A DNA stretch of 64,000 bases from Oceanotoga teriensis. Lineage in GTDB: Bacteria; Thermotogota; Thermotogae; Petrotogales; Petrotogaceae. Both the position numbers and the translations under genes were made by a program. Under the pieces are notes generated by a model. The model worked only from the letters and a program-made list of their open reading frames with translations. It was not told the DNA's origin and ran no database searches. This document shows, piece after piece, positions 29,111 through 55,432 of the stretch; position 1 is the stretch's first letter; each line of letters begins with the position of its first letter. The stretch is taken from contig NZ_QGGI01000016.1 of assembly GCF_003148465.1 (NCBI RefSeq), forward strand, positions 1-64,000. Reading direction: 5' to 3'.

Positions 29111-31513
29111 TTAATTATTATTAATTCTGATTGTTATCATATTTCTGTTGTTTTTGAACTTTTTAAATATTTTATCTGGATTTTTTAATTTATCATCCCA
29201 TATTATAGTGTATTTAAAACTATGAAATCCACCAAGACTTGCTTTAAAATTTGTTTCCCATATGTTGTTCATTATCCAAGAAAAAAATATATCTTGATTT
29301 TTTTCTATTGATGGTTTTTCATATAATTTTATGTTTTTATATTTTGGTTTAGATAATTGTATCAAAGGAACATCTGGAGTTAAGATTAAGACAGAGTTTT
29401 TTGAACCTATTTTTAATATTCCATCTTTTACATAATAATATTCCATACATGTTCCAGGCAATTGATCTATCGCTGGTCTTAAATTTACCATTCCTTTGTT
29501 TATCCAAAGTTCTGAATTTTCTCCCGTATTAATTGGTAATGCCATTAATACGCTTTCTGGTTCCCATACACTTTGTTTATTCATTTTTAAAATTATATCT
29601 ATTTTTTTTAAATTTTTATATACTATCATATTTATTTCATAGTATGAAAAGCCTTTTAAATCATATTTAATACTTATTTCAGTAAATATATTTCCATCTT
29701 TTAATATATCTATACTTTTTATCATGCCTCTATTTATTTGGGTGTTTATATATCTTCTATTTCTTCCAAAAGTTCTTCTATGAGTCGATGGAATTAAATT
29801 TTTTTCATTTGGAGTTATTTCATATATTGGTTCTAATATTTCATAGTTTTTTGTTTTATCCACTAAATCTGTATTTGTTTGTTTATCTATCATATTCTTT
29901 ATTCCATGTTTTCCCCATATTATTTTTATATATTTTGTTTCTATATACTCGGGAGTTATTTGAAATGTATTATATTCTTGCTTATTTAAATCTATATCAT
30001 AAATTCCATCTGCCAATTTTATCGATTTATAATAATCGCTATTTTGTTTTTTATCTAATTTTATATTAAGAGTTTTTTCTTCTAAAGGTTTTAATTTTAA
30101 TGGTACATGAAGAATTATTCCACGTGGAAAGTTTTCTGATTGATAATCGTATTCTTCATTGGTTTTTTCTTCTATTATTTTATATCCTTTTTCTAAAAAC
30201 CTTAATTCCCAATAATTTATTTCAAGTTTTGCTATTTCATATATTTCTTGATTTGATGTATTTATTACTTTATAAATTAATGGTTGAGCTGTTTTTAAAA
30301 GTTGTTGTCCTTTTTGGATTAAAATTTTATCTAAAGATTTTTGTACTTGTATATGTGCATCTAATGCATATTTGTTTTTTCTCGCTTCCGAAAATAAGAC
30401 CATTTCATCAGAAGGATTGTCTATACTGGCAGAATATCCGCAAGTATGTTCAGAATAAAGTAATAAATTTTCTTCTATTTCTTCTCTTGTTTTTTCATTT
30501 ATAATATTTTCTTTATCTATTTCTTTTAAAAGTTCATAATCAGCTTGAGCATTTCTATACATCTTTGTATAGTCTGGTAAAGAACCAAATCCATCTGTCC
30601 ACCAATCAGGCCAATCTCCAGAATATGTGGGAATATCTTTCGATTCTTTTTTTAAATTTTTAAAAAATCCTTTTAATGTAGACATCTCAAGTTTAATACT
30701 TTTTCCATATTTTTCATTCCATTTTTTTATATATTCTATAAAATATGGATTAGGTGGTGCATTATCTGTTTCAAGTCCAGATGTCATAAGCGGTATATAA
30801 GAATATTCATAATTTTGTTTTTCAAGATTATTTATATATTGTTCTAATTTTTCATAATCATTTTCTATTTGTTGATCAATTTTGCTGCATAATTCCCAAT
30901 TTTTTTCTTTTATCCACATAATTTCAGGTGCATTTATTCCAACAGAAGCTGTTGTCATATAATGATCACCATTCCAAACAAGTATTTTATTTCCTAATGG
31001 CGTTTTCCAATAAAATGGTGTTTGTATTTTTCTTAAAGGGTACATTCCATGATGTGTGTGTATACATGAAAATAAATATTTTATTCCTTCATCATAAAAA
31101 GCTTGTGAATAACTCCAACCATATCCATTTATATCCGCTGTCATTGCTGTTTCAATATCTTGGTCACATTTTTTTGCAAAATTTTTTGCTTTTTTTATTT
31201 TATTTTTTAATGAAGGTATATCAGTTAATTCAGACATATTTAAATAGTTTGCAGTTAATTCTATATTCCCTCTTTTTATAGCTTTTATAAGTCTTTCTTT
31301 CCATATTTCATTTGTAGATTTTATAAAATTTTCAACTTCCCAAAAATTTTCACATACCCAAATAAAATTGTCATTTTCTTCTAATTTTTCACTTATTTCT
31401 ATAGCTTGTTTTAAAAATTCTGTGTGAAAATCCATTATTTTTTCTTGTCTATGAGTATATCCTATGTCAGTATGTGTAGTGTGAATCAATTTGATTGTAT
31501 AATTTCTTTTCAT
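29111..31513 (-). CDS. GH38-like glycoside hydrolase (alpha-mannosidase superfamily)
   Basis: An 800-residue cytoplasmic protein without a signal peptide. KLIHTTHTDIGYTHRQEK is the N-terminal GH38-type zinc strand (H-x-D). ETAMTADINGYGWSYSQAF carries the likely nucleophile Asp, and CIHTHHGMYPL a further zinc His. Residues 430-800 are beta-sandwich-like. The divergent form with THTDIGYT is found in a subgroup often labelled DUF5054, so the exact linkage cleaved is uncertain. It lies 47 bases after a LacI gene, and a LacI-type palindrome covers its presumed start of transcription. Regulation by that LacI protein is therefore likely. ATG 31513 has GGAGG. Confidence 0.78.
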   Translation of the reverse strand: MKRNYTIKLIHTTHTDIGYTHRQEKIMDFHTEFLKQAIEISEKLEENDNFIWVCENFWEVENFIKSTNEIWKERLIKAIKRGNIELTANYLNMSELTDIPSLKNKIKKAKNFAKKCDQDIETAMTADINGYGWSYSQAFYDEGIKYLFSCIHTHHGMYPLRKIQTPFYWKTPLGNKILVWNGDHYMTTASVGINAPEIMWIKEKNWELCSKIDQQIENDYEKLEQYINNLEKQNYEYSYIPLMTSGLETDNAPPNPYFIEYIKKWNEKYGKSIKLEMSTLKGFFKNLKKESKDIPTYSGDWPDWWTDGFGSLPDYTKMYRNAQADYELLKEIDKENIINEKTREEIEENLLLYSEHTCGYSASIDNPSDEMVLFSEARKNKYALDAHIQVQKSLDKILIQKGQQLLKTAQPLIYKVINTSNQEIYEIAKLEINYWELRFLEKGYKIIEEKTNEEYDYQSENFPRGIILHVPLKLKPLEEKTLNIKLDKKQNSDYYKSIKLADGIYDIDLNKQEYNTFQITPEYIETKYIKIIWGKHGIKNMIDKQTNTDLVDKTKNYEILEPIYEITPNEKNLIPSTHRRTFGRNRRYINTQINRGMIKSIDILKDGNIFTEISIKYDLKGFSYYEINMIVYKNLKKIDIILKMNKQSVWEPESVLMALPINTGENSELWINKGMVNLRPAIDQLPGTCMEYYYVKDGILKIGSKNSVLILTPDVPLIQLSKPKYKNIKLYEKPSIEKNQDIFFSWIMNNIWETNFKASLGGFHSFKYTIIWDDKLKNPDKIFKKFKNNRNMITIRINNN

Positions 31514-31528
31514 TTTTTTCCTCCTTTT

Positions 31529-31554
31529 ATTAATACGTATTAATTATTAAATCA
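31529..31554 (-). promoter_or_regulatory. LacI operator and extended -10 before the GH38-like gene
   Basis: ATTAATACGTATTAAT at 31529-31544 is a perfect 16-bp palindrome with the central CG typical of LacI-family sites. Immediately upstream on the minus strand is TGATTTAAT (31546-31554), an extended -10. The operator would cover the transcription start. Confidence 0.75.
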
Positions 31555-31560
31555 GTCTTC

Positions 31561-32562
31561 CTACTCTCTTGAAGAAGACTCTCTTATGGTTAACTTAGGT
31601 TCACATTGGAATTTTTTTATATGTTTTTCTTTTTTTATTTTTTTAAAAAGTATTTCAGCAGACTTTTCTCCCATTTCTATTAAGGGTATATCCGCTGTAC
31701 TTAAAGGAATTTGAGTGTATGGAGCATAACTATTGTGATCACATGATATTATTCCAAAGTCTTTTGGTATTTTTTTATTCAATTTTACAGCACTTTTCAT
31801 CGCATTATATGCGAGATATGTATGTGATGCTATTACAGAATCTATATTTTTATTTTGCTTTAGATATTTTTCTATTTCTATATTTGCATTTTTATAATCT
31901 TTTATATATATTATGTTTTCTTTTAATTTGAAATTTGAAATAACTTCTTTGTACCCCTTTATTCTATCCATTTCACCATAGTTTAAATTTTCAGGGGATA
32001 TATATAGTATATTTTTATATTTTTTTTCTATTAAATGTTTTGTAGATTCGAATGCTCCTTTGTATAAATTATATGTAATAGTTGTTATTTGTGGTATATC
32101 ATAACCAGCAATTATTGTCACAAATGGTATTTTTAAAGCATTTAATTCGTTTGATATTTGTTTTATATTTTCATCTATTGTTGCTACATATATTAATCCA
32201 TCTATTCTTTTTTGTTGATAATATTCTATATAGTCAGGAGTTTGTTGTTTATATTCCCAATTACATATGGTTATACTATTTTGATTTTTTATGCATATTT
32301 TTCTAATTCCTTCCAGAATATTGGGTATCAAAAATGAATCTATATATTTTGAAATAACAATCCCAATTGAATTTGCAAGGTTCATTTTCATATTTCTTGC
32401 AAGTATATTAGGCTTATAATTTAATTTTTCTACTGCATTCATAACTTTTTCAATGGTTTCTTTTTTAAAGTTTGCTCCTTTTTTATTATTCAGTATCATA
32501 GATACAGTCGACTGAGATACACCTGCTTCTTTTGCAACATCTTTACTATTTATTCTCTTCAT
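31561..32562 (-). CDS. LacI-family transcriptional regulator
   Basis: A 333-residue repressor. Residues 5-50 are the helix-turn-helix and hinge (SKDVAKEAGVSQSTVSMILNNKKG...KLNYKPNILARNMK). Residues 65-330 are the periplasmic-binding-protein-like sugar sensor (SIGIVISKYIDSFLIPNILEGI, RIDGLIYVA, DFGIISCDHNSYAPYTQIPLSTAD). It has matching 16-bp palindromic operators at its own promoter and before the downstream GH38-like gene, so it is autoregulated and controls that gene. Its ribosome site is a G6 run (GGGGGGAA). Confidence 0.95.
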   Translation of the reverse strand: MKRINSKDVAKEAGVSQSTVSMILNNKKGANFKKETIEKVMNAVEKLNYKPNILARNMKMNLANSIGIVISKYIDSFLIPNILEGIRKICIKNQNSITICNWEYKQQTPDYIEYYQQKRIDGLIYVATIDENIKQISNELNALKIPFVTIIAGYDIPQITTITYNLYKGAFESTKHLIEKKYKNILYISPENLNYGEMDRIKGYKEVISNFKLKENIIYIKDYKNANIEIEKYLKQNKNIDSVIASHTYLAYNAMKSAVKLNKKIPKDFGIISCDHNSYAPYTQIPLSTADIPLIEMGEKSAEILFKKIKKEKHIKKFQCEPKLTIRESSSRE

Positions 32563-32578
32563 TTTATATTCCCCCCAT

Positions 32579-32603
32579 TAATTAATACGTATTAATTATA
32601 TCA
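32579..32603 (-). promoter_or_regulatory. Promoter and operator of the lacI gene
   Basis: TAATTAATACGTATTAATTA (32579-32598) is a perfect 20-bp palindrome containing the same 16-mer found before the GH38-like gene. On the minus strand TGATATAAT (32595-32603), an extended -10, overlaps its edge. Confidence 0.78.
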
Positions 32604-32604
32604 T

Positions 32605-32701
32605 AAAATAAAAAAAAGCTGTGGAATATTTTTCCACAGCCTAATTCTATAATAACAAAGGGGGGGATCTTTGTTCGGTGATTGGGGTTTAGTTAATCAC
32701 T
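32605..32701 (-). ncRNA. Predicted small RNA with C-rich hairpin loops
   Basis: On the minus strand an extended -10 (32708-32713) predicts a start near 32701. The RNA then shows three consecutive hairpins. The first is GTGATT/AATCAC (32700-32678) with loop AACTAAACCCC. The second is AACAAAG/CTTTGTT (32675-32654) with loop ATCCCCCC. The third is a 9-bp GCTGTGGAA-type stem (32640-32618) followed by a run of T at 32617-32605, an intrinsic terminator. There is no ORF. C-rich loops that can pair with G-rich ribosome sites are the hallmark of several sRNA families. The lacI gene downstream has its own promoter, so this is probably a separate transcript rather than only its leader. Confidence 0.65.
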
Positions 32702-32707
32702 TGATTT

Positions 32708-32716
32708 ATTATAACA
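32708..32716 (-). promoter_or_regulatory. Extended -10 promoter of the predicted small RNA
   Basis: TGTTATAAT on the minus strand, a perfect extended -10. No clear -35 is present, as is usual for this promoter class. It sits seven bases before the first hairpin. Confidence 0.6.
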
Positions 32717-32916
32717 CGATTATTGTTACGTCTTTTTTACTTAAGTAACGGTCTTAATTAATTTTAGTTAAATAATATTTAAACTTTTATAATCTTATGT
32801 TAATTTTTGATTGCTTTTTAGTTCTATTAATTTCAGACTCTCTCATAAAAGCTTTAATATTAAGTTAATATCTGAATGTTGATATTTATCACATTTTTTA
32901 ATTATAATTTTTAAAT

Positions 32917-34116
32917 TCAATTTAAACTGTTTAAATATTCTGATATGACCCAAGCTGTGCTAAAAGCATATTGTATATTATAGCCTCCTGTATCTCCATC
33001 TACATCTATAACTTCACCTGCAAAATATAGATTTTTAATAATTTTCGATTCCATATTTTTAGGATTTATCTCTTTAGTGTCAATTCCTCCATTTGTAACC
33101 ATTGCATTATCAAAATTTCCGAGTTCATCTATTGTATATTCATGATCTATTAGAAAATCTGTTATCTTATCTTTTGTTCTTTTATCGATATTATGTGATT
33201 TTTGTTTTGGATTTATTTTTATTTTGTTTTCTATATAATCTATAAATCTTTTTGTTAGTTCATATTCTTTAAGTATTGAAAATAAATTGTCATTAGATTT
33301 TTTTATTTTTTTATTTATATCTTCTTTGAATAATTCTTTATTTTTTAAATTTATAAAAGAAATCTTTATTTTTTGATTTTCATTTAAATATCTCGAAAAA
33401 TCGAGTATACAAGGTCCTGAAAATCCTTGATGTGTAATGAGTAAATCATTGATATTTTGTTTTTTATCAGATATTTTTATTTTTGCATTTTTGAAAGATG
33501 TACCGGAAAGTTCTTGCATATCAAAATTTTTTATTTTTATATTTGTAAGGGCTGGTTTTGGTGTTATTATATTATGACCAAATTTTTTTGCAAATTCATA
33601 TCCATCACCATTTGTACCTAAATTTGGGTAAGATTTACCACCAGTAGCTATTATTACCATTTTTGATTTATATTCTGATTTATTTGTTTTTATTATGAAG
33701 TCTTTTTCTTTTTTTATACTTTTTACTTTTTCCGAAGTTTTTATTGTATAATTATTTCCTTTTATTATATTAATCAATATATTTAAAATGTCTTTAGATT
33801 TCTTTGTTTTTGGAAAATATTTTCCATTTTTATCTATTATGAAATTCATACCATATTTTTGAAAATAATTTATAGTATCATAATTAGTAAATCTAAAAAG
33901 TTGTTTTTTTACATAATTTTTTCTTTCTCCATAATGTGTTATAAATTGTTTTATATCTTCATAATGTGTTAAATTACATTGTCCAGATCCAGATATTAAA
34001 AATTTTTTACCAATTTCATCATTTTTTTCTATTATTAATACTTTTTTATTTTTTATATTTGCTGCAGCAAACAACCCTGAAGGGCCTGTACCTATTATTA
34101 CAACATCATAATCCAT
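32917..34116 (-). CDS. BaiN/HI0933-family flavoprotein
   Basis: A 399-residue NAD(P)/FAD-dependent oxidoreductase. It has the N-terminal dinucleotide fold DVVIIGTGPSGLFAAANI, then EKNDEIGKKFLISGSG, the family signature. VIIATGGKSYPNLGTNGDGYEFA, THQGFSGPCILDFS, and the C-terminal NLYFAGEVIDVDGDTGGYNIQYAFSTAW complete the family pattern. Proteins of this group (YhiN, HI0933, BaiN) reduce C=C bonds in a few tested cases; most have unknown substrates. It is transcribed alone. Confidence 0.9.
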   Translation of the reverse strand: MDYDVVIIGTGPSGLFAAANIKNKKVLIIEKNDEIGKKFLISGSGQCNLTHYEDIKQFITHYGERKNYVKKQLFRFTNYDTINYFQKYGMNFIIDKNGKYFPKTKKSKDILNILINIIKGNNYTIKTSEKVKSIKKEKDFIIKTNKSEYKSKMVIIATGGKSYPNLGTNGDGYEFAKKFGHNIITPKPALTNIKIKNFDMQELSGTSFKNAKIKISDKKQNINDLLITHQGFSGPCILDFSRYLNENQKIKISFINLKNKELFKEDINKKIKKSNDNLFSILKEYELTKRFIDYIENKIKINPKQKSHNIDKRTKDKITDFLIDHEYTIDELGNFDNAMVTNGGIDTKEINPKNMESKIIKNLYFAGEVIDVDGDTGGYNIQYAFSTAWVISEYLNSLN

Positions 34117-34353
34117 ATTTTTCCTCCTTTTTTTACATCGAAAATTATATCATAAAATTTATTTTTTCCCATTAATTTTTTTCACATCATTTATTAAAAT
34201 AAAATTAATATTTTTTTAATGTTTATACTTGTTTTATAGTATAAAATTAATTGATTGTTATTTTTTATACTATAGTATATTTATTTGTAATTTTGTGATA
34301 TCATGTTTATATTTAATATGGGATAATTTAATTTTTTCAAAGGGGAAAAAAAT

Positions 34354-54073: not shown

Positions 54074-54088
54074 TGGGGGGAGATTTTT

Positions 54089-55432
54089 ATGGAAATTTCC
54101 AAAGATAATATTTTGAAAGATGATATGGGTTTTTTATTCAAGAAACTCGCAATACCAGGAATTATAGGAATGTTTGCATTGGGTCTTTATAATTTTGTAG
54201 ATGCAATATTCATAGGTCAATTTGTTAGTAAAGAAGGTCTTGGTGCAATCACACTCGCATATACAATCGTTCTTATAAATCAGTCTATAACAACATTATT
54301 TGGAAATGGTGCAATGTCTGTTTTGTCAAGAGCCATTGGGAAAAATGATTCTAATAAAATTGAAAAAATTGCTGGTAATGTATTAATCTTAACTTTCTTA
54401 TTTTCTCTCATTTTAACGATAATTGTAAATGTTTATGCTGAAAATATTATTTCATTTTTAGGGGGAAAAAATGAAATTTTAAATCTTGCAGTAGACTATG
54501 TAAAAGTATTATCTTTAGGATTTGTTTTTGCTTCTTCGGGGCCAGCTTTAAATTTTTTGATTAGGGCTGAGGGGAGAATGAAAACAGCCATGAAGATGGT
54601 TTTTATTTCAATATTCATGAACATAATTCTTGATCCCATTTTTATAATAGGTTTTAAACTGGGTATTAAAGGTGCTGCATGGGCTACAGTCATATCTCAA
54701 ATTACATATTTTATTATAAATATATTATATATTCAAAAAAGTTCAAGTTATGCAAAAATTAAATCATTTAATTTGAATTTCGATATAATATTGAATATAT
54801 TAAACCCAGGAATTTCAGCAATGGCATTGAATATAGTTGCTATTATTCAGCAAATAATAATATTTAGACTTTTGGCAAAATATGGTGGAGATTTTCATAT
54901 AATAATAATGGGAACATGTTTAAGAGTTTTTATGTTTTTTTATACTCCTCTATGGGGTATTGGCCAAGCATTGGCATCTGTTTCTGGAATAAATTATGGA
55001 GCCGGAAATGTACATAGAACATATTTTTCATTAAAATATTTTAATATCATAGGAACTATAATATCTTTTATGTGCTGGTTAATTTTCATGTTATTTCCAG
55101 AATTTATATTGAGCTTATTCATCAATAATACAGAATATATAGTTGATGGTGCTCCTTTATTTAGAATTCTTTTATCTGTATTTTTTATTTATTCAATAGA
55201 AGTTAACTATATAAGTTTTTTTCAGGCACTTGGAAAAGGTCTCCATGCATCTATATTAACTATTGGTAGACTCGTAATAATTTTTATTCCTTCTGTATAC
55301 ATTCTTAGTTATTTTATGCAATCAGATGGAATTTGGATTTCTCTTCCTTTAGCTGATATCTTAATAACGATCACTGGAGCTATTTTAATAAAAATATTAA
55401 AGACCAAACAAATGAAAAGGGTCACTTTATAG
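54089..55432 (+). CDS. MATE-family multidrug efflux protein
   Basis: A 447-residue transporter with twelve membrane spans. LFKKLAIPGIIGMFALGLYNFVDAIFIGQFVSKEGLGAI and FGNGAMSVLSRAIGKND are the N-lobe MATE signatures. NPGISAMALNIVAIIQQIIIFRLLAKYGGD and WGIGQALASVSGINYGAGN form the C-lobe repeats. It is a cation-coupled efflux pump, co-transcribed with the TetR gene. Its ribosome site is a G6 run (AATGGGGGGAG). The stop lies inside the terminator stem-loop. Confidence 0.94.
   Translation: MEISKDNILKDDMGFLFKKLAIPGIIGMFALGLYNFVDAIFIGQFVSKEGLGAITLAYTIVLINQSITTLFGNGAMSVLSRAIGKNDSNKIEKIAGNVLILTFLFSLILTIIVNVYAENIISFLGGKNEILNLAVDYVKVLSLGFVFASSGPALNFLIRAEGRMKTAMKMVFISIFMNIILDPIFIIGFKLGIKGAAWATVISQITYFIINILYIQKSSSYAKIKSFNLNFDIILNILNPGISAMALNIVAIIQQIIIFRLLAKYGGDFHIIIMGTCLRVFMFFYTPLWGIGQALASVSGINYGAGNVHRTYFSLKYFNIIGTIISFMCWLIFMLFPEFILSLFINNTEYIVDGAPLFRILLSVFFIYSIEVNYISFFQALGKGLHASILTIGRLVIIFIPSVYILSYFMQSDGIWISLPLADILITITGAILIKILKTKQMKRVTL

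Follow-up and report, generated by a model that had tools for sequence, protein, structure and literature searches.

The 64-kb window (the whole stretch of DNA that was analysed; GC content of 25%) contains on its minus strand a compact transcription unit that probably specifies a trans-acting anti-Shine-Dalgarno small RNA, co-regulated with a C-rich sRNA that is widespread in the class; this reading is built on sequence comparisons, predicted folds and predicted pairing energies. The features involved are collected in Table 1. A sequence-only reading had placed here an extended −10, hairpins and a terminator, all of which were borne out by the sequence and by comparison of the fold with shuffled sequences: the predicted fold reaches −28 kcal/mol (z −6.75), a value equalled by none of 200 shuffles, and after removal of the terminator the remainder still has a z of −4.15. 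The loops described as ending in CCCC and CCCCCC were likewise recovered in the fold (AACUAAACCCC and AUCCCCCC, respectively), with the C run of hairpin 2 comprising seven residues, the last of which closes the stem. The length of about 97 nt given in the same reading was roughly right, and the usual offset of 7 nt from the −10 brings it to ca. 90–93 nt. No ORF of 80 aa or longer is listed across the sRNA, nor is a −35 match listed for its promoter, and comparison of the window with the Rfam 15 covariance models gave no match at gathering score.

Table 1. Features of the window sRNA, its promoter region and its predicted targets (positions in the 64-kb window).
Feature	Coordinates	Strand	Details
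Putative small RNA	32610..32702	−	ca. 93 nt, with the start deduced from the −10; fold z −6.75
Extended −10, TGT TATAAT (TGTTATAAT)	32708..32716	−	from sequence; 11 nt past the last half-site
Operator-like array: TTAAC (32771–32767), GTTAC (32749–32745), GTAAC (32729–32725)	32725..32771	−	spacings of 22 and 20 bp
Predicted hairpin 1	32678..32700	−	6 bp, 32700–32695/32683–32678; loop AACUAAACCCC
Predicted hairpin 2	32654..32675	−	7 bp, 32675–32669/32660–32654; loop AUCCCCCC
Proposed anti-Shine-Dalgarno seed, C run of hairpin 2	32666–32660	−	fold and predicted pairing energies
Intrinsic terminator	32610..32640	−	stem of 9–11 bp (32640–32632/32626–32618), then U8
lacI promoter (TGATATAAT, 32603–32595) and putative LacI operator palindrome TTAATACGTATTAA	32582..32603	−	second copy before GH38
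Predicted target: lacI ribosome site, GGGGGG	32571..32576	−	loop 2 duplex, −15.9 kcal/mol
Predicted target: ribosome site GGGGGG plus ATG, gene of 447 aa (MATE in the sequence-only reading)	54075..54091	+	duplex energies

The host genome (G000) also contains its own copy of the class-wide C-rich sRNA (C18:4198–4280, minus strand; loci L083 and L149; hereafter the C18 type), with the core CCCCCUAUCCCCC. This sRNA was found in 21 of the 21 genomes of the family (covariance model R2, E ≤ 1e-6) and in 88 of the 103 genomes of the class (covariance model R3, E ≤ 0.001), with the copy of genome G093 at 934662–934738 on the minus strand; outside of the family its consensus reads ACCCCCCUAUCCCCCUUGAGAUACACCCCCCAC, followed by a terminator, and the C core is kept as sequence while the flanks change. 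A conserved hairpin was considered for the class-wide sRNA and discarded, because RNAalifold supported pairing in the terminator only, and none of the tested examples of the C18 type and related sRNAs reached a Rfam gathering score. In one genome of genus g11, group II intron sequence lies near the C18-type sRNA (L191:2966–3074).

Promoter architecture is what joins the window RNA to this class-wide sRNA. The promoter of the latter carries KTWAC half-sites, the last of them 11 nt before the −10. Their spacing is exactly 21 bp in six of the family's eight genera (that of the host genome, g2, g3, g4, g5, and g7) and more irregular in genus g6; the host copy has four half-sites with the 21 bp spacing. 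The promoter of the window sRNA follows the same plan, reading TTAAC-N17-GTTAC-N15-GTAAC-N11-TATAAT, that is, KTWAC half-sites ca. 21 bp apart in an array that ends 11 nt before the −10, although with slightly irregular spacings (22 plus 20 bp, vs. 21 plus 21). With a tolerance of 1 bp this was the only array match in the 64 kb, where 0.0079 would be expected from 1,256 Mb of simulated sequence, a figure that is somewhat generous since the tolerance was fixed after the window array had been seen. As an independent check, the pattern GTTACT-N13-16-GTAAC was traced genome-wide, and it occurs in only four places: the window sRNA, the C18 sRNA, C7:30798, and one site within coding sequence. The C7 site, which reads TTTAC-N17-GTTAC-N15-GTAAC-N11-TATATT, reproduces the exact 22/20/11 geometry of the window, expected 0.016 times per genome and found twice (window and C7), and precedes an unannotated intergenic transcript candidate of ca. 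89 nt with one CCCC segment and a terminator (L197:577–830). Given the half-site arrays at the three promoters, the window, C18, and C7 RNAs very likely share a regulator, for which, by analogy with the csRNAs, a response regulator would be our guess. Only the full array is significant: GTAAC-N11-TANNNT by itself, found once in the window vs. two expected, was rejected as a signal. A search for three exact TAAC repeats at 21 bp retrieved the conserved sRNA promoters, tandem repeats and other scattered sites, among which no new members of the regulon were identified.

The window RNA resembles the class-wide sRNA also in its C runs, size and terminator, but it does not contain the core CCCCCUAUCCCCC, and its runs of C are exposed in the loops of two hairpins. 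Model R3 gave no match at the window sRNA at E ≤ 1, the conserved core CCCCCUAUCCCCC-UGAGAUA not being found there, and model R2 scored 15 bits on the window (E 0.056). Homologs of the window RNA with C-rich loops, for which the sequence-only reading had suggested a covariance search, did not appear among the 60 genomes searched, none of which is from another species of the same genus: the inspected matches of a single-sequence covariance model (R1) had no C-rich loops, and several were dismissed as homologs because they were terminators at gene ends. Blastn comparison of the 111-nt element with these 60 relatives retrieved, besides the element itself, short AT-rich or terminator sequences as best matches. 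LacI orthologs were sought as synteny anchors and abandoned, none being close (best identity ca. 33%, in other genera), and a search of genome contigs yielded one distant match from Lachnospiraceae.

A search of the host genome for two C4 runs followed by a T run revealed at least four further intergenic C-rich sRNA candidates with terminators (C18:4199, C15:12061, C11:23660, and C13:19949). The motif AUCCCC is repeated in these other C-rich candidates, of which those of the C11 and C15 types are also seen in one further genus. Several look-alikes were set aside in the process: many matches to CCCCCC followed by a T run are antisense to GGGGGG ribosome sites, C11:29300 is by sequence the end of a tRNA, the C-rich family D is located immediately 3′ of a gene, and the C-rich family E follows 5S rRNA-like sequence. 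In genus g4 (L154, L155), a C-rich trailer that is conserved, CCCCATATGTCCCACCCC, comes after a 5S rRNA-like sequence and precedes a terminator. Genus g6 (L200–L205) has a second C-rich sRNA containing CCUCCUU, a sequence identical to the anti-Shine-Dalgarno tail of the 16S rRNA.

Runs of G in ribosome sites of the window had been put forward as partners of the C-rich loops, and we confirmed them at lacI, the gene starting at 54089, a 269-aa gene (24044), and a 100-aa gene (55895); overall, ribosome sites with G5 or longer precede 7 of the 59 window genes. Prediction focused on these G-rich sites agreed with the proposal, in that the predicted loop 2 duplex with the lacI and 54089 sites reaches −15.9 kcal/mol, vs. 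−9.3 kcal/mol for the 16S tail, and the median pairing of loop 2 over the 59 window genes is −5.9 kcal/mol. In the whole genome, GGGGGG-N4-10-ATG occurs 70 times (67 distinct), compared to nine in a reversed control, and 55 of 60 inspected sites are followed by an ORF of 60 aa or longer; the commonest case is an AU after the G run (24 of 55 sites), which matches the complement of the loop. These G6 sites cluster in operons, with seven adjacent same-strand pairs vs. 1.7 expected (fraction 0.001). Most clearly, four consecutive genes (G000:C9:45968–48402; L323–L326) all have GGGGGG ribosome sites, and three of them correspond to pyruvate dehydrogenase-type E1 alpha, E1 beta, and E2. The hfq gene (C17:41867, L343) has a GGGGGG ribosome site as well, so that C-rich sRNAs could also act on the gene of this RNA chaperone. 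GGGGGG sites also precede two neighboring genes at C20:16739–17691 (L346, L347), of which one encodes a KwaB-like domain, as in the Kiwa phage defence. A run of C will easily match a Shine-Dalgarno site by chance, and therefore it is the promoter array and the set of sRNAs that carry the weight of the argument.

Together, the shared array, the at least four other C-rich candidates and the operon-clustered GGGGGG sites lend support to the earlier proposal of a C-rich sRNA acting in trans. According to the mechanism that we propose, a DNA-binding regulator would recognize KTWAC half-sites two helical turns apart, and the same regulator would control the class-wide sRNA (C18) and a third small transcript (C7). 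The window RNA, of ca. 93 nt, would be transcribed from its own promoter, end at the intrinsic terminator and act in trans, its exposed loops ACCCC and AUCCCCCC pairing with ribosome sites of the type GGGGG(G)AU. This pairing would block ribosome entry, and with it translation, for a subset of genes, while genes with a standard GGAGG site would pair less well with the C loops. The structure, the terminator, the separation from lacI, the shared array, the complementarity, and the abundance of G6 sites with their grouping in operons come directly from the analysis; within this scheme we infer the transcription of the sRNA, the identity of its regulator, the direction of regulation, the actual targets, and any help from Hfq.

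Other explanations were considered. The sRNA and lacI share a strand, and some 85 nt beyond the C loop comes the lacI ribosome site, a GGGGGG run that is complementary to this loop; the RNA could thus be a cis-acting leader or attenuator of lacI, with normal read-through into this gene and a C loop masking the lacI ribosome site in cis only. We consider this improbable because a strong terminator with U8 separates the sRNA from lacI, which has its own extended −10, TGATATAAT, directly 3′ of that terminator and overlapping a perfect palindrome, TTAATACGTATTAA (32595–32582), and because elsewhere the same promoter array precedes stand-alone terminated RNAs. The view that the lacI promoter lies downstream of the terminator, and that the RNA is more than a lacI leader, thus held. 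The palindrome has one further exact copy in the window (31530–31543), before the next gene, of the GH38 alpha-mannosidase family, and judging by sequence the copies at 31530–31543 and 32582–32595 are likely a pair of LacI operators; from the shared TTAATACGTATTAA and the separate lacI promoter, lacI and the mannosidase gene resemble a self-controlled sugar operon, apart from the sRNA. Nor does it seem at all probable that there is no gene here, in which case the terminator would be that of the HI0933-family gene upstream, and both the array and the C-rich hairpins would be fortuitous. The HI0933-family gene ends at 32917, the sRNA terminator is the sole terminator-like site within 31500–34200, and no homolog of the window sRNA was found in the 60 relatives, which would agree with such an explanation; however, the fold keeps its significance when the terminator is taken away, and an array so rarely expected in 64 kb sits exactly 11 nt before the −10.

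A further alternative is that the sRNA is real and belongs to the array regulon, but functions independently of pairing to ribosome sites, for example by binding to mRNAs elsewhere, to a different sRNA, or to a protein. The C7 transcript shares the array but has only one CCCC segment, and hence the operator need not mean an anti-Shine-Dalgarno function. We nevertheless deem this alternative rather unlikely, since the conserved member of the regulon keeps its C core as its flanks change and the AUCCCC motif recurs in the other C-rich candidates of the host genome, and we favor a trans-acting anti-Shine-Dalgarno sRNA.

The sequence-only reading likened this anti-Shine-Dalgarno architecture to sRNAs of Firmicutes; the architecture was upheld, but the host is of the Thermotogota type and not a Firmicute. 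Among known systems, the csRNAs of streptococci, belonging to the CiaR regulon, comprise several small RNAs that end in terminators and leave anti-Shine-Dalgarno segments unpaired; their promoters contain spaced repeats of the site for the regulator ca. 10 nt ahead of the −10, the CiaR repeats being TTTAAG-N5-TTTAAG, and the RNAs carry an anti-start-codon CAU (PMC3091779). The window sRNA also has a predicted unpaired anti-Shine-Dalgarno segment and a terminator, a likeness that serves as a working analogy only, but its half-sites are KTWAC with a spacing of ca. 21 bp, it comes from a different phylum, and we saw no sequence relationship; no TTTAAG-N5-TTTAAG pair was found upstream of its −10. 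LhrC of Listeria, a multicopy sRNA that a two-component system controls, binds, like RNAIII, RsaE, SprD, and FsrA, to G-rich ribosome sites through C-rich UCCC segments located in loops or single strands (PMC4132741). A UCCC segment is present in loop 2 of the window RNA (AUCCCCCC), whereas its C runs are longer (4 and 7), its predicted sites are GGGGG(G), and it has no Rfam match. Because its promoter departs from the csRNA definition and no Rfam match was obtained, we regard the window sRNA as an analog, and not a member, of the csRNA and LhrC groups.

The literature searched yielded no description of a trans-acting sRNA from the phylum Thermotogota. The report on the Thermotoga maritima transcriptome describes a paucity of ncRNAs, with 12–13 putative ones for which no secondary structure is defined, and the class-wide sRNA is possibly already among them, uncharacterized (PMC3636130). 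We see an even chance that there is a Thermotogota-wide regulon in which one dedicated regulator, acting on an array of half-sites two helical turns apart, would control a set of C-rich anti-Shine-Dalgarno sRNAs, with one core member being class-wide and others, such as the window RNA, lineage-specific, and which would tune genes with all-G ribosome sites, including the pyruvate dehydrogenase operon. If true, the class-wide C-rich sRNA, its operator array and the extra members would provide this deep-branching phylum with a defined regulon of sRNAs, one that parallels the csRNA and LhrC systems independently and whose targets can be tested directly.
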